64,000 bases of DNA from Amycolatopsis sp. NBRC 101858 (GTDB taxonomy: Bacteria; Actinomycetota; Actinomycetes; Mycobacteriales; Pseudonocardiaceae): contig NZ_BSTD01000008.1 in NCBI RefSeq assembly GCF_030269325.1, forward strand, positions 434,001 through 498,000. Reading direction: 5' to 3'. The position numbers and the translations under genes were made by a program. Of this stretch, positions 34,740 to 57,701 are shown in pieces (the stretch's first letter is position 1; each line of letters opens with the position of its first letter). The notes under the pieces were generated by a model. That model was not told the origin of the DNA and did no database searches. It saw only the letters and a program-made list of their open reading frames with translations.

Positions 34740-35420
34740 TCAGTCGGCTTCCCGGTTGAGGTAGTTGTAGACGGTGAACCGCGTGACCCCCAGCGCGTCG
34801 GCCACCGAGGAGACGGATTTCCGCAGGCCGAAGGCTCCACGTTCCCGCAGCAGCCGGACGGCCCGCTGCTTGCCGGCCCGATCGAGTTCACCCAGGGGGG
34901 CGCCGAGTTCGCGTTCGACATCGGCGATCAGCCGGGCGAGCGCATCGTGCAGTTCGACGACCGGCCCATCGGCCGCCGCGACGTGGCTGGGCTCGCTGGC
35001 TGCGGCGACGTGGCCGGGCTCGCCGGCCGCCGCGACGTGGCCGGGCTCGCCGGTCGCCGGGACGTGGCCCGGCTCGCTGGCTGCCGCGACGTGTCCCGGG
35101 CCGTCGGCTGCCCGAGCGTGTCCAGGCTCGCCGGTCGTCAGGCCGTCATGGCCCGCCGCGGGCAGGTCGCTGCCCCCGTCTGCTGCGAGCCGGCGCACCT
35201 GCAGCGTCACCTGCGTCGCGCCGTTGTCCAGCGCGGCCTTCGCGATCGCCGGGAGCGCGTCGTACAGCTCCTTCGCTTCGCCGCGGACGAGCGTCCCGAG
35301 CGGCCCGAAGTCGGTCTCCAGCCCCGCTTCCGCGGCGGCGTCCCGCGCGGCGAGTGCGTGCTCGGGCGGCGAACCCTCGCCACGGAACGGTTCGCTGGTG
35401 AACTCCGCTTCAAGCCGCAC
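34740..35420 (-). CDS. Thiamine-binding-fold/helix-turn-helix regulator fusion
   Basis: 226 residues from a GTG at 35420. The N-terminal part (VRLEAEFTSEPFRGE, LETDFGPLGTLVRGEAKELYDALPAI, TQVTLQVRR) looks like the MTH1187/YqgV thiamine-binding-like fold; a linker of six 9-residue repeats (GHVAAASEP type) follows; the C-terminus is a helix-turn-helix ending RKSVSSVADALGVTRFTVYNYLNREAD. It lies between the uraD operon and allantoinase, so it probably controls ureide genes. No ribosome site precedes the GTG; TACGGT lies eight bases upstream, suggesting a leaderless transcript. Domain naming of the N-terminus is by pattern and moderately sure. Confidence 0.8.
   Translation of the reverse strand: MRLEAEFTSEPFRGEGSPPEHALAARDAAAEAGLETDFGPLGTLVRGEAKELYDALPAIAKAALDNGATQVTLQVRRLAADGGSDLPAAGHDGLTTGEPGHARAADGPGHVAAASEPGHVPATGEPGHVAAAGEPGHVAAASEPSHVAAADGPVVELHDALARLIADVERELGAPLGELDRAGKQRAVRLLRERGAFGLRKSVSSVADALGVTRFTVYNYLNREAD
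34980..35141. repeat. Six tandem 27-bp units inside the regulator gene
   Basis: Units begin at 34980, 35007, 35034, 35061, 35088 and 35115, each with a GACGTGG-like start. They encode the nine-residue units GHARAADGP, GHVAAASEP, GHVPATGEP, GHVAAAGEP, GHVAAASEP, SHVAAADGP in the linker of the regulator. Confidence 0.85.
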
Positions 35421-45091: not shown

Positions 45092-46063
45092 TCAGCCCAG
45101 GGCGGCGCGAAGCCGTGCGTCGCGCTCGGCGGGCGTCTGGCGCGGGCAGCTCACGCACTTCGGGTTGCCGACCTCGTAGATCAGGCAGCACGACGCGCGG
45201 CGCACGGCAGGCGTCCGGCCGACGCGCACGAAGCGCGGCTTCGGCAGGCCCAGGCCGATCGCGGCCACGAGCGGTTCGGCGAGGGCCATCGCGCGCTCGG
45301 GGTCGGGCGTCCACAGCAGCCGGTTGCCGATCGAGTCGGCGGCGATGGCGCCGAGGGCGCGCGCCCGAGCGCCGGTGACGGCGGCGATCGTGGTGATGGC
45401 GGCCCCGAGCGCCTCGCCGAACGCGGCGCCCAGCTCGGGCAGCCCGCCGATGAGGGCGCGGGTGGAGCGGGCACCGAGGAACCGGCCGTCGGCGAGGAGG
45501 TCGATCTCCATGGCATCGAGCGACGGGTCGGCCAGTACGAGCCGCGGAGGCCGGCCGGCGGCGGGTCGATCGGGTGGTGCCGGGTTTGCCGTCGGGGCGC
45601 TTGCCGAGTGCTGCGCTTGGCCGGGTGGTACCGAGCCCGCCGCAGCTGAGCCCGCCGCCGAGCGCTTCGCAGCCGGTCGCTCCGCGGCCGTGCCCGCTGC
45701 GGCCGTGCCCGCTGCAGCCGAGCCCGCCGCGGCCAAGCCCGCAGCCGTGCGCTCCGCGGCCGAGTTCGCCGTAGCCGTGCCCGCCGTAGCCGAGCCCGCC
45801 GCAGTCGAGCCAGCTACGGCCGAGTCCGCCGCCGCCGGGCGTTCCGCTCGGCCGGCCGGTGCTGGGCTCGCTGCGCTGTCCGTCGCGGCCGCCAGGCTCT
45901 CCAGCGCCGGGGCCACCAGCACCGATGACAGCGAATACCACCAGATCGTGCCGAGGACCTCCGGCCGGGCGCAGCCGTAGAGCTTGGCCGCGCCGCCGAT
46001 GCGGGCGCGTACCCACTCCGGGTCCGCGAGCAGGGTCGCGGGGGCGGTCCAGTCGGGCTTCAC
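45092..46063 (-). CDS. FhuF-like 2Fe-2S ferric iron reductase with an Ala-rich repeat insertion
   Basis: 323 residues. The N-terminus (PATLLADPEWVRARIGGAAKLYGCARPEVLGTIWWYSLSSVLVAPAL by its motif GTIWWYSLSSVLVAPAL) and the C-terminus (RASCCLIYEVGNPKCVSCPR, a CC...CxxC cluster site) match siderophore-iron reductases. Between them, about residues 62-171, is a low-complexity stretch of Ala, Gly, Ser and Thr (AAGSAAAGTAAAGTAAERPA) not expected in the family. It should reduce ferric siderophores in the cytosol. Confidence 0.85.
   Translation of the reverse strand: MKPDWTAPATLLADPEWVRARIGGAAKLYGCARPEVLGTIWWYSLSSVLVAPALESLAAATDSAASPAPAGRAERPAAADSAVAGSTAAGSATAGTATANSAAERTAAGLAAAGSAAAGTAAAGTAAERPAAKRSAAGSAAAGSVPPGQAQHSASAPTANPAPPDRPAAGRPPRLVLADPSLDAMEIDLLADGRFLGARSTRALIGGLPELGAAFGEALGAAITTIAAVTGARARALGAIAADSIGNRLLWTPDPERAMALAEPLVAAIGLGLPKPRFVRVGRTPAVRRASCCLIYEVGNPKCVSCPRQTPAERDARLRAALG
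45550..45880. repeat. Low-complexity 15-bp-periodic region inside the FhuF-like gene
   Basis: A GC-rich, roughly 15-bp periodic stretch (GCCGAGCCCGCCGCG-like units on the plus strand) encodes repeated AAGSA/AAGTA/AERPA pentads on the minus strand. It is degenerate, so the copy number is not exact. Confidence 0.7.
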
Positions 46064-52601: not shown

Positions 52602-53256
52602 CGAGGTTCTCCTTCTTGAGGTACCAGAGGTGCCAGACGAGCAGGACGGCCAGCGCGCCGAACCACGCCACGTTGGTGACCAGCGCGATCAGGTCGATCG
52701 GCAGCGTGTAGACGAGCACGATGTGCAGCACCGCACCGGCCAGCAGCACCGAGCCCCAGGCGGCCGTGTTGATCCGCAGGCCGCGGCGGAACCGGGCGTC
52801 GGTGTCCCAGCGGCCCACCCACGCGTCCGCCCCTTCGGCACCGCGCTTGACCTCGGCGATCGTGCGGCCCAGCGTCAGCTGCGCCGGCCGGCCGATGAAC
52901 ACCGAAACCAGCATCCACGCGCCGAACACGCCACCCAGCGCCGCTGTCCACCCTTCGCGGATCACCAGCGTGCGCGGGTCGTCCGAGAGCAGGCCGAGCA
53001 CGACCGACAGCACCAGGACGCTCAGCGTGACCAGGGCGACCAGGTCGACCCGGCGGTTGCGCACGATCGTCCACACGACGTACGGCGCGGCCACCAGGAC
53101 GCCGGCCATCAGCGCCCACCACTGGCTCACGCCGGCCGCGCGCAGGCCGTAGAACAGCGCCATCGGCACGATCACTTCGAACACGACGTTCAGCACGTTC
53201 GCGCGGACCAGCCGGCGCAGGCCGGCGTCGGGTTCGGTCTTCTCTTCGATCATCAT
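52594..53256 (-). CDS. VC0807-like integral membrane protein
   Basis: 220 residues with five or six hydrophobic segments: LNVVFEVIVPMALFYGL, WWALMAGVLVAAPYVVWTI, LVALVTLSVLVLSVVLGLL, AWMLVSVFIGRP, TAAWGSVLLAGAVLHIVLVYTLP. This matches the VC0807/DUF3159-like membrane family, of unknown function, often beside TetR genes. It overlaps both neighbours (tetR stop and monooxygenase start), so the three genes form one operon. Confidence 0.85.
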
Positions 53257-53855
53257 CCGTGTTCCCCAGTGGATTCGGGTGCGGTCGCCCGCACGTAGAG
53301 GTCGGCGAGCTCACGGCCGATGCGCGCGAGCTCGGCGGGTTCCAGCCCGGCCGCGGCCGCCGTCGCGACGACGGCGTCGAGGCCGGAGGTGAAGGCGAGC
53401 GCCGTGGTCCGGGCATCGAGCGGGCCGAACGCGCCCGCTGCCTGCCCGGTGCGGAAGTGCTCTTCGAACAGCGCGAGCCGTCCGTTGACGCCGGCGCTCT
53501 GCGAGCCGGCGTTCTTCACCAGGTCGATCAGCGCGCGGACTTCGGCCGGGTGCTCGCCGACGAGTTCGACGTTCGATTCGACGTAGGCGCGCAGCTGCGC
53601 GACGTGGCCGACGGCGGCGTCGATGCGCGGCTGCATGAACGCCCCGGTGACCAGCTCGATCTCGGTGACGCACGCCGCGAGCAGGTCGTCCTTGCCCGCG
53701 AAGTGGTAGCTGATCATGCCGGTGCTCGACAGGCCCGCCTGCTTCGCGATCCGGCTGAACGACGCCTTCGCGTAGCCGGCCTCGGCGATCACTTCGATCG
53801 CCGCCCGCACGATCTGGGCCCGCCTGCCGGACTCGGTGAAGGTTCTTGCTCGCAT
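53253..53855 (-). CDS. TetR-family regulator of the monooxygenase operon
   Basis: 200 residues from ATG 53855 (MRARTFTESGRRAQIVRAAI). Helix-turn-helix: VIAEAGYAKASFSRIAKQAGLSSTGMISYHFAGKDDLL (motif FSRIAKQAGLSSTGMISYHF). First gene of a three-gene operon with a membrane protein and an FAD monooxygenase, which it most likely represses. Two dyads overlap and precede its start codon. Confidence 0.92.
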   Translation of the reverse strand: MRARTFTESGRRAQIVRAAIEVIAEAGYAKASFSRIAKQAGLSSTGMISYHFAGKDDLLAACVTEIELVTGAFMQPRIDAAVGHVAQLRAYVESNVELVGEHPAEVRALIDLVKNAGSQSAGVNGRLALFEEHFRTGQAAGAFGPLDARTTALAFTSGLDAVVATAAAAGLEPAELARIGRELADLYVRATAPESTGEHG

Positions 53856-53883
53856 GAGCAAAATTTAGCTCAGCCGAGCAAAA
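53846..53883. promoter_or_regulatory. Paired TetR operator dyads
   Basis: TTGCTC-GCAT-GAGCAA (53846-53861, perfect) and TTTAGCTC-AGCC-GAGCAAAA (53864-53883, one mismatch) share the TTnGCTC-N4-GAGCAA pattern, with centres 20 bases apart, i.e. on the same helix face. The first covers the tetR start codon, so autorepression is likely. Confidence 0.7.
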
Positions 53884-53925
53884 ATGACAAGTCGCCAGGT
53901 CAGGGGCAGGAAATGGGGGAGTGGA

Positions 53926-55230
53926 TCAGGCGGTGGCGGTGCCGTCGACGACGCGGTTGCGGCCCGCGTCCTTGGCCCGGTACAGGGCCTTGTCGGCAGC
54001 CTGCAGCAGCCGCTCGACGGCCGTGCCGCCGTCCGGGTACGTCGCGACGCCGATCGAGGCCGACAGGGCGTCGATCACGCGGAGGTGGGTGCCGTCCTCG
54101 TACTCGACCTTCAGCGACTCGATCGCCGACCGGATGCGCTCGGCCACCGTGAGGACCGCCGCCGGGCCGATGTCCGGCAGCAGGACCACGAACTCTTCGC
54201 CGCCGAAGCGGCCGACCGAGTCGTAGTCGCGGACCGCGCTCTTGATCGTCGCCGCAACCGCGCGCAGCACCGTGTCGCCCGCCAGGTGACCGTGCGCGTC
54301 GTTGATCAGCTTGAAGTAGTCCAGGTCGATCATCAGCACGCCGAATGTGCTCCGGGAGCTGCGCTGGGCGCGGGCCAGTTCGCGCGAAGCGAGCAGATGC
54401 CACCCGGTCGTGTTGAACAGGCCCGTCTTCTCGTCGGTCGTCGCGGCGATCTCCAGCTGCTTGATCAGCACCGCCCGGTGCAGCACCAGCAGCGGCGGCA
54501 CGATCGCGACGGCGAGCGCGGGCAGCGTCGCCAGCGTCAACGCCGTGAGCAGGCCCAGGCAGAGCGTCGCGACCTCGAGGAGGTTGTCGCCGAGACCGCC
54601 GAAGAACGCCTTGATCGTGCGCTTGGTGATCGTCAGCGCCGGGACGATCGTGATCGCCGAGACCAGGAAGTACGTCACCGCGGCCAGCGCGATGGCCGTG
54701 ACGCCGCGCCAGCCCGACGTCAGCGCGGAGTACATGTCGCCGACGCCGAGCCGGGCGAGCACGAACTCGGCCGAGTAGCAGGTGACCACGACCAGCGTCG
54801 CGTTCAGCGTGGTCCGGAACGGCGGGACGCGCTTCATCCGCGCGAGGCTGCGCGTGGCCAGGTGCAGGTACAGGACGGCGATCAGGGCCGTCACGAGCGC
54901 GGGCGGCAGGAGCAGCACGCCGGCGAACGTCCAGACCGACGTCAGGTTGATGTGCGGGGTGTCGGACACCAGCCGCCGGACGCGCTCGATCTGCCGGCCG
55001 AGCTCCGCTTGCAGCACACCGAGGCCGGCGAGGACGCCGAAGACGACCAAATCCCAGGCGTGGACGGGCACCACCGCGGCGGTCCAGATGGTGGCCACGA
55101 GCGCTATGGACTCGACGAGGAAGCAGTAGAAGATCAGCGATCCGCGCTGCTGCCAGAGCGTCCAGCGAGCAGGGTTCAGCGCCCCACGGATCCGGCCCAC
55201 GCGGGGTTCGGCCGGACGGGCGCCGTCCAT
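53926..55230 (-). CDS. Membrane-bound diguanylate cyclase (GGDEF)
   Basis: 434 residues from ATG 55230 (MDGARPAEPRVGRIRGALNP). Six or so membrane helices (about residues 25-225) resemble a MASE-type sensor; a short helix leads to a GGDEF domain (about 265-430) with STFGVLMIDLDYFKLINDAHGHLAGD, the active GGEEF motif in RFGGEEFVVLLPD, and an intact product-inhibition site RDYD nine residues before GGEEF. It should make c-di-GMP, which represses development in actinomycetes. Longer frames upstream only read through the antisense of the micro-ORF array. The nearest neighbour upstream is that divergent array. Confidence 0.93.
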   Translation of the reverse strand: MDGARPAEPRVGRIRGALNPARWTLWQQRGSLIFYCFLVESIALVATIWTAAVVPVHAWDLVVFGVLAGLGVLQAELGRQIERVRRLVSDTPHINLTSVWTFAGVLLLPPALVTALIAVLYLHLATRSLARMKRVPPFRTTLNATLVVVTCYSAEFVLARLGVGDMYSALTSGWRGVTAIALAAVTYFLVSAITIVPALTITKRTIKAFFGGLGDNLLEVATLCLGLLTALTLATLPALAVAIVPPLLVLHRAVLIKQLEIAATTDEKTGLFNTTGWHLLASRELARAQRSSRSTFGVLMIDLDYFKLINDAHGHLAGDTVLRAVAATIKSAVRDYDSVGRFGGEEFVVLLPDIGPAAVLTVAERIRSAIESLKVEYEDGTHLRVIDALSASIGVATYPDGGTAVERLLQAADKALYRAKDAGRNRVVDGTATA

Positions 55231-55344
55231 ACTCAAGGCGGGTGCAACTCCCCTGGGTGATCCGACGATCCGCGTCCACTTCACCACATCGGGCGACCGC
55301 GATCGACGATTGCCACACGTTCGGAGCAGCGAAGGGAGGCCGTC

Positions 55345-55365
55345 ATGCGCAACCGCGAGTCCTGA
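55345..55365 (+). CDS. Micro-ORF 1, hexapeptide MRNRES
   Basis: ATG start, then CGC AAC CGC GAG TCC TGA. AAGGGAGG ends five bases before the ATG, the best ribosome site of the array. First unit after a 114-base leader with no convincing promoter hexamers. Confidence 0.75.
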   Translation: MRNRES

Positions 55366-55406
55366 GCCGCCGAAGTCCCGCCGGAACACCCGAGAGGAGA
55401 CGTGCC

Positions 55407-55427
55407 GTGCGCAACCGCGAGTCCTGA
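55407..55427 (+). CDS. Micro-ORF 2, hexapeptide MRNRES
   Basis: GTG start, then CGC AAC CGC GAG TCC TGA. GAGGAG lies seven bases upstream of the GTG. Its preceding spacer is the most diverged at the 5' side. Confidence 0.75.
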   Translation: MRNRES

Positions 55428-55467
55428 ACCCACGCCCACCCGTCCACGCGCGCGAGAGGAGAGCCAA

Positions 55468-55488
55468 GTGCGCAACCGCGAGTCCTGA
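55468..55488 (+). CDS. Micro-ORF 3, hexapeptide MRNRES
   Basis: GTG start, then CGC AAC CGC GAG TCC TGA. GAGAGGAGAG precedes it with about five bases spacing. The surrounding spacer is nearly identical to that of unit 4, suggesting a recent duplication. Confidence 0.75.
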   Translation: MRNRES

Positions 55489-55528
55489 ACCCACGCTCAC
55501 CCGTCCACGCGCGAGAGAGGAGAGCCAA

Positions 55529-55549
55529 GTGCGTAACCGCGAGTCCTGA
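55529..55549 (+). CDS. Micro-ORF 4, hexapeptide MRNRES
   Basis: GTG start, then CGT AAC CGC GAG TCC TGA: the first Arg codon is CGT instead of CGC, a synonymous change. GAGAGGAGAG ribosome site. Confidence 0.75.
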   Translation: MRNRES

Positions 55550-55589
55550 ACCAGCGCTGACCTGCCACTACGTGCGTGAGGAAAGCGCC

Positions 55590-55610
55590 GTGCGCAACCG
55601 CGAGTCCTGA
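55590..55610 (+). CDS. Micro-ORF 5, hexapeptide MRNRES
   Basis: GTG start, then CGC AAC CGC GAG TCC TGA. The ribosome site is GTGAGGAAAG, somewhat weaker than in the neighbours. Confidence 0.75.
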   Translation: MRNRES

Positions 55611-55651
55611 AGCGAAGCCCACCCGTCCGCCACGCGCGAGAGGAGAGCCCC

Positions 55652-55672
55652 GTGCGCAATCGCGAGTCCTGA
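55652..55672 (+). CDS. Micro-ORF 6, hexapeptide MRNRES
   Basis: GTG start, then CGC AAT CGC GAG TCC TGA: AAT replaces AAC, again synonymous and unusual in this GC-rich genome. GAGAGGAGAG ribosome site. Confidence 0.75.
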   Translation: MRNRES

Positions 55673-55713
55673 ACCCACGCCCACCTGCCCCGACGTCCGG
55701 AAGGAGACGCGCC

Positions 55714-55734
55714 GTGCGCAACCGCGAGTCCTGA
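55714..55734 (+). CDS. Micro-ORF 7, hexapeptide MRNRES
   Basis: GTG start, then CGC AAC CGC GAG TCC TGA. GGAAGGAGA lies seven to eight bases upstream of the GTG. Confidence 0.75.
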   Translation: MRNRES

Positions 55735-55780
55735 CCCCGCCGAACACCCGTCCGCTCACCACGAGAGGGGAAACGTCACC

Positions 55781-55801
55781 ATGCGCAACCGTGAATCGTG
55801 A
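55781..55801 (+). CDS. Micro-ORF 8, hexapeptide MRNRES
   Basis: ATG start, then CGC AAC CGT GAA TCG TGA: three synonymous differences from the consensus copy with the peptide unchanged. GAGAGGGGAAA precedes it. Last unit; a hairpin begins six bases after the stop. Confidence 0.75.
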   Translation: MRNRES

Positions 55802-55807
55802 ACGCCC

Positions 55808-55824
55808 GCCGGAGGAGCTCCGGC
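55808..55824. terminator. Hairpin closing the micro-ORF array
   Basis: GCCGGAG and CTCCGGC arms with a three-base loop, six bases after the last micro-ORF stop and 33 bases from the end of the convergent SDR gene. Probably a two-way terminator without a T run. Confidence 0.55.
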
Positions 55825-55857
55825 CTGCCCAGTACCCGCGGGCCCGGGTGGGGCCGC

Positions 55858-56610
55858 TCAGGCGGTCGCGCCGCCGTCGACCACCAGGTCGTGCCCCACG
55901 GTGAAGGCCGCTTCGTCCGAAGCCAGCCACAGCACCGCGGCGGCCACTTCGGCGGTGGCCCCCACCCGGCCCAGCGGGATCGCGCCCTTCAGCCGTGCGG
56001 CGCGGTCCGCGTCCGTCTCGCCGGGGCGCAGCGACATGTCCGTGGCGGTCGCCCCCGGGCTGACCGCGTTGATGCGGACGCCGTCGGCGATGTGGTCGCG
56101 CGCCGCCGTGCGGGTCAGCGCGCTCACCGCGGCCTTCGACGCCGCGTAGGCCGCCATGTTCGGCAGCCTGCCGTGCGCGCCGATGTTCGACGCGATCGTG
56201 ACGATCGCGCCGCCGCCGTGCGCCCGCATGTGCGCGACCTCGTGCTTCAGGCACAGCCAGGTGCCGGTGAGGTTCGTGCCGATCACCGCGCCGAAGGCGT
56301 CCTCGTCGAGGTCCGCCGCCGGCGCCGGCGACCCGAGGATGCCCGCGTTGTTGACCGCGACGTCCAGCCCGCCGTGCCGCTCGACGACCGTGGCGACCAT
56401 CCGCGCCACGTCCGCCGAGTCGGTGACGTCCACCGTCACCGCGCTCGCCGCGCCCCCGATTTCCTTCACCGCGGACGCGAGCCGCTGCTCGTCCCGGCCC
56501 GCGACGGCGACCGTCGCGCCTTCCGCCGCGAACGCCTGCGCCGTCGCCAGCCCGATGCCCGAGCCGCCGCCCGTCACCAGGACGACCTTGCCTGCGAACC
56601 GTGCCCCCAT
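55858..56610 (-). CDS. Short-chain dehydrogenase/reductase
   Basis: 250 residues of the classical SDR family: cofactor motif VLVTGGGSGIGLATAQAFAAEG, NNAGILG, the catalytic Ser in GGGAIVTIASNIG, Tyr-x3-Lys in YAASKAA, and PGATATDM. The acidic/neutral pattern after the glycine motif (VAGRDEQ) fits NADP(H) use. Substrate unknown. Co-oriented with and 22 bases downstream of a TetR gene, which likely controls it. Confidence 0.94.
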   Translation of the reverse strand: MGARFAGKVVLVTGGGSGIGLATAQAFAAEGATVAVAGRDEQRLASAVKEIGGAASAVTVDVTDSADVARMVATVVERHGGLDVAVNNAGILGSPAPAADLDEDAFGAVIGTNLTGTWLCLKHEVAHMRAHGGGAIVTIASNIGAHGRLPNMAAYAASKAAVSALTRTAARDHIADGVRINAVSPGATATDMSLRPGETDADRAARLKGAIPLGRVGATAEVAAAVLWLASDEAAFTVGHDLVVDGGATA

Positions 56611-56632
56611 GTCTGCCTTCTTTCTGGTCTGA

Positions 56633-57220
56633 TCAGTCTCGAATGAGTACGCGCATCGCCTGCGAGACGGCCGCGTGCAGCCGGCTCGCCGCGTCCGTGC
56701 CCTTGCCCAGGACGCGCAGTCCCTGGAGCACGGTGAGCAGGAAACGCGAGAGCGTCGCCGGGTCGCTGTCGTCGGCGAGTTCGCCCTGGGACCGAGCGCG
56801 TTCGAGCGCCATGGTCAGGGCGACTTCGAGGGTGTCCCAGCTGCGCTCCACGATCCGGGCGACCGCCGGATCGCGGGGGAGCAGCTCGATCGCCGCGTTG
56901 ACGACGAAGCAGCCGACGGGCCCGTCTTCGTCCAGGATGTCCGCGACATAACCGTCGAGGAGCCGTCGCACCGCGGCCACCCCTGAGCCCGGCTTCGACA
57001 GCTCGGTCATCACGCGGGTGTCGGTCCGCTCAGCGTAGCGCTTCAACGCCGTCACGTAGAAGTCGTGCTTCGTGCCGAAGGTGGCGTACAGACTCGCCTT
57101 CGCGACGCCGAGGTGCGCGACGAGGTCGCTGACCGACGTCGCTTCGTAGCCCTGACGCCGGAAGAGCGCGAGCGCGGCGTCGCAGGCTTCGTCGACGTCG
57201 AACTCCTTGACCCGGGACAT
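56633..57220 (-). CDS. TetR-family regulator of the SDR gene
   Basis: 195 residues with a TetR helix-turn-helix: ACDAALALFRRQGYEATSVSDLVAHLGVAKASLYATFGTKHDFY (motif SVSDLVAHLGVAKASLYATF). The C-terminal part resembles the YwrD/NemR-type subgroup (GCFVVNAAIELLPRD). Upstream, at about 57237-57256, an ATCGAGAACGTTCGGTC stretch is a possible operator. Probably represses itself and the SDR gene; electrophile response would fit the subgroup but is unproven. Confidence 0.92.
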   Translation of the reverse strand: MSRVKEFDVDEACDAALALFRRQGYEATSVSDLVAHLGVAKASLYATFGTKHDFYVTALKRYAERTDTRVMTELSKPGSGVAAVRRLLDGYVADILDEDGPVGCFVVNAAIELLPRDPAVARIVERSWDTLEVALTMALERARSQGELADDSDPATLSRFLLTVLQGLRVLGKGTDAASRLHAAVSQAMRVLIRD

Positions 57221-57341
57221 GATCGAAACCCTAGTCGTATCGAGAACGTTCGGTCAAATAAGTGCCCCGCGGTGTGTCGCCTCCGATGACAGGCCGTGCG
57301 GTGGCACGATGGCGGGTCTGACCGGCCTGAGGGGGTGAGCG

Positions 57342-57701
57342 ATGCAGGACCTGACGCTGCCGCCGACGGTCGTCGCCACTCACCTGCGCTCCTGCGCCGA
57401 AGAGCTCGCCGCCGGCCTGCGCTGCGGCGGTCCGGGCGCCACGACCGGCGAGCTCACCGACGTCGTCGCGCACCTGATCGCCAGCCAGGAAGCCATCTCC
57501 CACGCGCTCGCCGGCCTCGCCGCCCGCGTCGAAGGCGGTGCGGACGCCCTCGCCGCGGCCCCGCCGCCGGACGTCGAGGTCGTCGCCGAGGTGCTGCGCG
57601 AGGCGGCCATCGCGGCCCGCTGCGCGGCCGAAGCACTCGACGAGGTCACGCCGTCGTTCGAATGTGTGAGCGAATCCGTCGCGCCTGACACCCGTTTGTA
57701 G
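57342..57701 (+). CDS. Hypothetical Ala-rich helical protein
   Basis: 119 residues beginning MQDLTLPPTVVATHLRSCAE. It is predicted helical and Ala/Val/Glu-rich (LTDVVAHLIASQEAISHALAG, VAEVLREAAIAARCAAEALDEV), with four cysteines and no signal peptide. A weak GGGGTGAGCG precedes the ATG. I do not recognise a family. It ends 53 bases before ku on the same strand and may be co-transcribed. Confidence 0.7.
   Translation: MQDLTLPPTVVATHLRSCAEELAAGLRCGGPGATTGELTDVVAHLIASQEAISHALAGLAARVEGGADALAAAPPPDVEVVAEVLREAAIAARCAAEALDEVTPSFECVSESVAPDTRL

Follow-up and report, generated by a model that had tools for sequence, protein, structure and literature searches.

In peptide quorum sensing, systems whose precursors are multi-copy or contain repeats bring together a short peptide, an adjoining sensor gene, paralogue-specific variants and an exporter. 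The second messenger c-di-GMP controls development in relatives of antibiotic-producing actinomycetes, and to our knowledge most diguanylate cyclases (DGCs) of the membrane have no known ligand. Genes that encode very short peptides have been described in two other settings, the biarylitides, which are pentapeptide RiPPs with bytA as precursor gene, and microcin C, which depends on the adenylating enzyme MccB and on Asn as the last residue of its peptide (gene mccA). The parts of PMC13417212 that deal with bytA describe unannotated genes of ~18 bp whose direct translation product is a 5-residue peptide with M-R or M-K at its start, report up to six copies in one Lysinibacillus strain, and have the aromatic residues of the peptides cross-linked by a dedicated neighbouring P450. 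The parts of PMC6495379 that deal with microcin C describe mccA as a seven-codon open reading frame (ORF) with a strong Shine-Dalgarno (SD) site, a formylated product and a dedicated pump, MccC. The same account states that a ribosome can go through repeated rounds of translation on ORFs of 2-8 codons without being released and that the formyl group matters in microcin C (PMC6495379).

Here, we have analysed an array of micro-ORFs in Amycolatopsis sp. NBRC 101858 (Table 1); the window is the whole stretch of 64,000 nucleotides that was analysed. When the starts and SD stretches were read directly, the eight tandem MRNRES ORFs with their own ribosome sites reported in the preliminary description were all found: each has the form RTG-CGN-AAY-CGN-GAR-TCN-TGA and encodes M-R-N-R-E-S-stop. 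The start-to-start spacings along the array are 62, 61, 61, 61, 62, 62 and 67 bp, in agreement with the 61-67 bp given there. A purine-rich SD stretch lies 5-10 nt upstream of every copy in the window (locus L189). The earlier claim of a GAGAGGAGA-like site before each copy therefore holds as far as an SD is concerned, while the exact GAGAGGAGA is found ahead of copies 2, 3, 4 and 6 only; the variants are AAGGGAGG at copy 1, GTGAGGAAAG at copy 5, GGAAGGAGA at copy 7 and GAGAGGGGA at copy 8. Because all 8 matches to the MRNRES pattern in the whole 11.16-Mb genome (up to 2 mismatches) fall inside the array and the reversed control pattern gives 0 matches at the same tolerance, the array is not a product of chance. 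It was also picked up by Tandem Repeats Finder (scores 406 and 426). An Rfam search of 53000-57500 with E up to 5 gave no match. Tandem Repeats Finder listed further GC-rich tandem repeats in the window at 34970-35137 and 45631-45837, with 27/81-bp and 15-bp periods. The preliminary description saw the array and overlooked the divergent DGC, the major facilitator superfamily (MFS) partner and the wider family to which we now turn.

Table 1. Features of the micro-ORF locus (positions are those of the window)
Feature	Position	Strand	Remarks
Micro-ORF 1	55345..55365	+	MRNRES, ATG start
Micro-ORF 2	55407..55427	+	MRNRES, GTG start
Micro-ORF 3	55468..55488	+	MRNRES, GTG start
Micro-ORF 4	55529..55549	+	MRNRES, GTG start, CGT codon
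Micro-ORF 5	55590..55610	+	MRNRES, GTG start
Micro-ORF 6	55652..55672	+	MRNRES, GTG start, AAT codon
Micro-ORF 7	55714..55734	+	MRNRES, GTG start
Micro-ORF 8	55781..55801	+	MRNRES, ATG start; CGT, GAA, TCG codons
Divergent membrane DGC, proposed partner	53926..55230	-	GGEEF motif, RxxD site; Pfam GGDEF 5.9e-44, TIGR00254; start codon at 55230 chosen by hand
Conserved intergenic stretch	55231..55344	.	Alignment of array-bearing loci; putative site of the divergent promoters
7-bp perfect inverted repeat 3' of array, possible terminator	55808..55824	+	Sequence reading
Convergent short-chain dehydrogenase (SDR)	55858..56610	-	Pfam adh_short_C2 3.2e-60

The DGC gene is divergent from the first ORF at a distance of 113-118 bp in 26 of the 27 array loci, the sole exception being a contig that begins inside the array. 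The divergent promoters are expected to lie in the conserved stretch between the two. The hairpin that follows the array in the window is missing from the consensus of relatives in the alignment of array-bearing loci. The SDR adjoins the array in 26 of the 27 loci; its convergent orientation holds for the window as well as for the 25 other array loci that extend to it. Nevertheless, the SDR was ruled out as the partner by genome G334, in which a single MRNRDS ORF stands beside the DGC with another gene (putative LysE-like) downstream, and by the MFS gene found at that place in other clades; we regard it as a clade-shared flank that is not essential and lies outside the proposed module. A. pretoriensis has the DGC that is closest in identity (91%).

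The hexapeptide proved to be conserved among relatives, a point on which the preliminary description had made its proposal partly depend. Arrays of 4-11 MRNRES copies are present in 26 of 80 Amycolatopsis genomes. Allowing up to one mismatch, the genus search gave matches in 30 of the 80, made up of the 26 arrays, three genomes with a single MRNRDS ORF (G302, G334 and G349) and one with MRNREY. The latter is an isolated, SD-preceded ORF in G183 (L048; G183:C1:2204903-2204923). In a family-wide sample the exact pattern was found in 6 of 297 genomes, all of them Amycolatopsis, with 5-10 copies each. A metagenome-assembled Amycolatopsis (L121) carries two MRNRES ORFs and then an MFS gene.

How the copies vary suggests what is being conserved. 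We compared 178 array ORFs from 27 loci in 26 genomes, defined by up to 5 mismatches to the reference and a distance within 110 bp of another copy, so that more decayed copies would be missed. Among them, differences in the sense codons occur at the third position only and are all synonymous, the codon pairs being CGC/CGT, AAC/AAT, CGC/CGT, GAG/GAA and TCC/TCG. Serine is encoded by TCC in 141 copies and by TCG in 37, and glutamate by GAG in 163 and by GAA in 15; the start varies between A and G (1 of the 178 has GTT in its place), and the TGA stop is constant. This pattern, in which the amino acids are kept and the codons are not, shows selection at the level of the peptide. Both Arg codons are CGC or CGT only, with no CGG or CGA; CGG is present in other peptide classes, and the restriction in MRNRES may reflect descent or the use of a single tRNA. 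The last copy of the array (55781 in the window) has its own signature in most of the listed arrays, with GAGAGGGGAACGTCACC or GAGAGAGGAATCGTCACC upstream and CGT at the second Arg. That this signature is kept, and that the copy resembles the single-copy MRNRDS ORF, suggests that it is the ancestral unit.

The MRNRES array is one case of a wider actinobacterial micro-ORF peptide system. We examined the best 80 of 93 loci from one peptide-pattern scan and dropped two as too short. An SD-preceded ORF of 5-8 aa lies on the DGC-divergent strand within 400 nt at 65 of these 78 loci, which are not independent as many are congeners, whereas the reverse strand has one at 2 of the 78 and dinucleotide-shuffled sequences at 4.92 on average. 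At least two ORFs with the same last four residues occur at 28 of the 78 loci, compared with 0 on the reverse strand and 0.00 in shuffled sequences. When the region was extended and the rule relaxed to admit longer ORFs, 78 of the best 80 of the 93 loci were found to carry one, a count that, like the tally of MFS genes below, uses a C-terminal motif picked after inspection of the data. Of the 13 loci that the 400-nt count missed, ten form the MAGRDQ group, otherwise called MPAMAGRDQ, with a weak SD; as for the others, the ORFs of L164 lie beyond 400 nt, L184 can be read as RNKDW from a TTG start, and none was seen at L188.

SD-preceded micro-ORFs before orthologous or paralogous DGCs encode MSNRDT, MRDRGN (x3), MSNRDS, MRNRDN (x2), M[CRG]SRDN (x6), M[RAT]NRDN (x11), MSRSWDW/MRSWDW (x6), MTNKDW, MCGRDN, MAGRDQ, MNGRED, MRGVEY, MGGIEY, MRTREH and MRNKDL. 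Kutzneria, Kibdelosporangium, Herbihabitans, Haloechinothrix, Labedaea, Actinophytocola, Thermocrispum and Fodinicola are among the named hosts. With the loci of the class-wide search excluded, 25 classes follow a common frame that is mostly [N/G/S/T]-[R/K]-[D/E]-x; their last residue varies, being N in 4 classes and Y, Q, W, L, F, S, T, D, G or H in the rest. In several classes other than MRNRES, one residue can be encoded by unrelated codons (AGC/TCC for Ser, CGN/AGG for Arg), and all three stops are used. In the class-wide search (E<=1e-20), the sensor family of the DGC was found in 24 of 296 genomes, 18 of them in family f21, where heptapeptide arrays such as MRDNTWT, MRDTTWS, MRDNNWN and MRGNSWD lie beside homologous DGCs. 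A search of 22 f21 genomes for exact MRDNTWT gave 33 copies in 6 genomes, in one cluster each. A TGTCC...GGACAAT inverted repeat recurs between the DGC and the first micro-ORF at four f21 loci (L197, L200, L203 and L208), where it may serve the divergent pair as operator or promoter. In one record, titled Rhodococcus rhodnii NRRL B-16535 (L168), the DGC and the MGGIEY ORF nearly coincide with their counterparts in Kibdelosporangium aridum (L165), at a tree path of ~0.02; the record is probably mislabelled or contaminated.

Multiple copies of a short motif beside this kind of DGC are also encoded in another way. In the genome of the window, the divergent position beside a paralogous DGC (G000:C1, at 113269), where micro-ORFs sit elsewhere, is occupied by one ORF of 94 codons in which PTDWT is repeated eight times (L193:1019-1303). 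A PTDWT-repeat ORF with 5-10 repeats was found in 29 of 30 congeneric loci fetched from the 35 genomes matched; in this set L234 is cut by a contig end, and L245, on a short contig, shows none. The linkers are variable, and 163 of 174 repeat units are exactly PTDWT. Pfam and NCBIfam scans of this precursor gave nothing above the cut-off. Moreover, f21 locus L197 has ORFs that carry the motif twice. The occurrence of tandem ORFs, a repeat ORF and twice-motif ORFs beside the same kind of enzyme suggests that two or three designs serve to provide many copies of a short motif.

We then compared the identity of the peptide with the phylogeny of the DGC. On a FastTree tree of 136 DGCs, in which many forks are open, the 39 peptide states of the 122 labelled rows need 39 changes (minimum 38), whereas 200 label shuffles gave a mean of 98.8 and never fewer than 93. 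With the 14 unlabelled rows added, 44 changes are needed (minimum 39; shuffled mean 109.8). Paralogues of one genome differ in their peptide, as in A. decaplanina, which has GRDQ, NKDW and GRED. Such agreement is what cognate peptide-cyclase pairs would look like, but linkage alone would give much of it without any binding, because linked genes are inherited together.

The proposed partner has the GGDEF/GGEEF motif and the RxxD inhibitory site of a diguanylate cyclase. In 36 aligned DGCs, GGEE and the D of RxxD are invariant and the R of RxxD is kept in at least 90%, so the cyclase looks active. The sensor was modelled as a helical domain (pLDDT 85.1, pTM 0.84) and is presumably a membrane domain. 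No significant structural relative of the sensor was found in the PDB (best E 0.11), and a match to ThiT (E 1.2) was discarded as not significant. The genome of the window has eight DGC paralogues, three of which have neither a peptide gene nor, within 1.5 kb around each, an MFS gene. Nine DGCs that lack a peptide gene keep E76, E82, R85, W100 and R127 in 9 of 9 and H93 in 6 of 9, and no alignment column was found that separates DGCs with a peptide from these nine. Since the near-invariant sensor residues are mostly kept where the peptide is missing, they cannot serve as markers of a peptide site; their retention counts against the simplest binding model.

Taken together, conservation, linkage to the DGC, the match to its tree and the PTDWT precursor indicate that the locus most likely yields a short peptide, encoded in multiple copies, that acts together with its cognate DGC, probably as a signal. 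On balance we favour a multi-copy hexapeptide gene whose product is the dedicated ligand of its own divergent DGC and is read out as c-di-GMP. Ribosomes would make free and, we infer, probably N-formylated MRNRES directly from the tandem micro-ORFs, and the combination of good SD sites with tandem ORFs of 5-8 codons would give a high yield of one short peptide, an end that the paralogue would reach through its one-ORF PTDWT-repeat precursor. MRNRES could then set the activity of the adjoining membrane DGC, so that the level of the peptide, either the cell's own or, after export, that of its neighbours, would be turned into a level of c-di-GMP. The adjacent MFS protein, where present, is a candidate exporter. 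Of the three roles suggested in the preliminary description, the multi-copy signalling hexapeptide is the best supported, by the kept residues, the tracking of the sensor and the PTDWT precursor; the translation of the ORFs in vivo, the sensing by the DGC and the signalling itself are what we would infer from the sequences.

Whether the peptide leaves the cell depends largely on how the MFS gene is read. This gene is convergent with the micro-ORFs, and Pfam MFS_1 was found in 6 of 6 tested. Using a C-terminal motif picked after inspection of the data (the 65 of 78 above stands without the motif), we counted 94 loci with peptide and MFS, 33 with peptide only, 5 with MFS only and 18 with neither among 150 non-redundant loci, a tally in which five loci were too short and one was without a hit; the co-occurrence has a Fisher p of 3e-6, ignoring shared ancestry. 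Four of the five loci with MFS only (L099, L102, L197 and L220) have short ORFs by eye that the rule missed. A homologue search of the window's own genome (E<=1e-25) gave four MFS genes, all beside peptide-bearing DGCs (L190, L192, L193 and L195), and none beside the window's array. As the window's array and 33 of 127 peptide-bearing loci are without one and the other 94 have it, the MFS gene is a frequent but dispensable neighbour. With no MFS gene next to the arrays of the window's lineage, export would need an MFS paralogue encoded elsewhere, or the peptide would act inside the cell; export is plausible where the MFS gene is present. It is conceivable, though rather unlikely, that the hexapeptide is an intracellular regulator only, whether at the cytoplasmic face of the DGC or at another target, that it perhaps reports the state of translation or growth, and that the MFS protein has another job. 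The loci without an MFS neighbour would fit, as would a six-residue product without a secretion signal and several conserved charged residues of the sensor that are predicted to be cytoplasmic from the helix pattern and the positive-inside rule. The co-occurrence of MFS and peptide genes across distant lineages, f21 included, and the position of all four MFS homologues of the genome speak against it.

An exported natural product is less probable still. According to this explanation, the micro-ORFs are tiny RiPP-like or antibiotic precursors, the MFS protein is their exporter and the DGC is a co-regulated regulator. The MFS neighbour agrees with it, the size and SD sites resemble those given for bytA (PMC13417212) and mccA (PMC6495379) in the parts of these papers cited above, and the former also reports multi-copy precursor genes in RiPPs. 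However, among ten neighbour proteins from seven loci there is no shared modifying enzyme, P450 or ThiF. The 67 P450 match rows in the genome include none in the window, and those closest to the array (at 489345 on the contig) stop at 418287 and start at 570276, ~71 and 80 kb away; the 8 ThiF matches in the genome include none on the contig of the array (C8). MRNRES is also without an aromatic residue, and the C-terminal residues vary among the classes.

The two other roles suggested in the preliminary description, a ribosome or tRNA sink and an RNA that regulates by its translation (a drop-off minigene or leader peptide), fit worse, and we consider them very improbable. The R/K-x-R/K sequence is a macrolide-stalling motif that M-R-N-R resembles, and very short tandem ORFs with strong SD sites could be expected of either. 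Yet a tRNA-sink minigene would have a fixed codon and tRNA identity, whereas TCC/TCG and GAG/GAA interchange within the arrays and AGC/TCC and CGN/AGG in other classes, so that codons for different tRNAs replace one another. Nor is the PTDWT paralogue, being one ORF, a minigene sink, and the peptide differs by DGC paralogue. Regulation by translation is further disfavoured by the lack of a co-oriented gene after the array in the window, where the next gene is convergent. That the repeats are not genes at all, being neutral expansion, protein-binding DNA or minus-strand coding for the N-terminus of the DGC, is hardly credible. The minus-strand frame of the DGC is open to 55659 in the window, but modulo 3 the 151 spacings divide into 40 of class 0, 48 of class 1 and 63 of class 2, leaving no fixed frame through the array, the variation follows plus-strand codons and the arrays are kept in 26 genomes; an extension of the DGC across the array is ruled out by this spacing and codon pattern.

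We found no description of the micro-ORF/DGC module, whose function is putative, in the PMC literature. Tentatively, and with less assurance than for the ligand itself, we suggest that these loci could represent a new class of actinomycete signalling, in which unprocessed ribosomal peptides of 5-8 residues, from tandem micro-ORFs or, in one branch, from repeat precursors, would each be the specific ligand of their own membrane DGC and leave the cell through an adjacent MFS pump, with several non-identical pairs per genome. If the proposal is true, a likely DGC ligand is encoded beside the enzyme in many natural variants, which would make cognate pairing directly testable, and antibiotic-producing actinomycetes would gain a gene-encoded short-peptide signal. 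It would also show that peptide-level selection can act, in several families, on tandem genes that are only five to eight codons long and that annotation misses.

How, then, does the array compare with the known systems? Like bytA as described in the parts of PMC13417212 cited above, it consists of tiny unannotated genes in multiple copies that directly encode a short peptide starting M-R. It differs in that its constant neighbour is a diguanylate cyclase and that the copies number up to 11; an adjacent cross-linking P450 is missing, and MRNRES has no Tyr, Trp or His at which cross-links could form, while some other classes of the family do contain W, Y or H. With microcin C, as far as the cited parts of PMC6495379 describe it, the array shares the length of the ORF and the SD sites, and by analogy its tandem copies would fit a high yield of a short formyl-peptide; in contrast, the partner of the micro-ORFs is a DGC, the C-terminal residue is variable, and MRNRES ends in Ser instead of Asn. 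Membership in the biarylitide RiPPs and in the microcin C family therefore fails on the defining enzymes, P450 and MccB/ThiF. Leader peptides and attenuators share a very short ORF with its own SD, but here the copies are many, the peptide is kept through codon change, and the downstream gene is convergent, the SDR at this locus and the MFS gene elsewhere. With peptide quorum sensing, the array and its relatives share a short peptide, an adjacent sensor gene, variants that differ between paralogues, a candidate exporter and, in one case, a repeat precursor; what sets them apart is that the peptides are encoded by bare micro-ORFs without a leader and that a diguanylate cyclase of the membrane is the candidate receptor.
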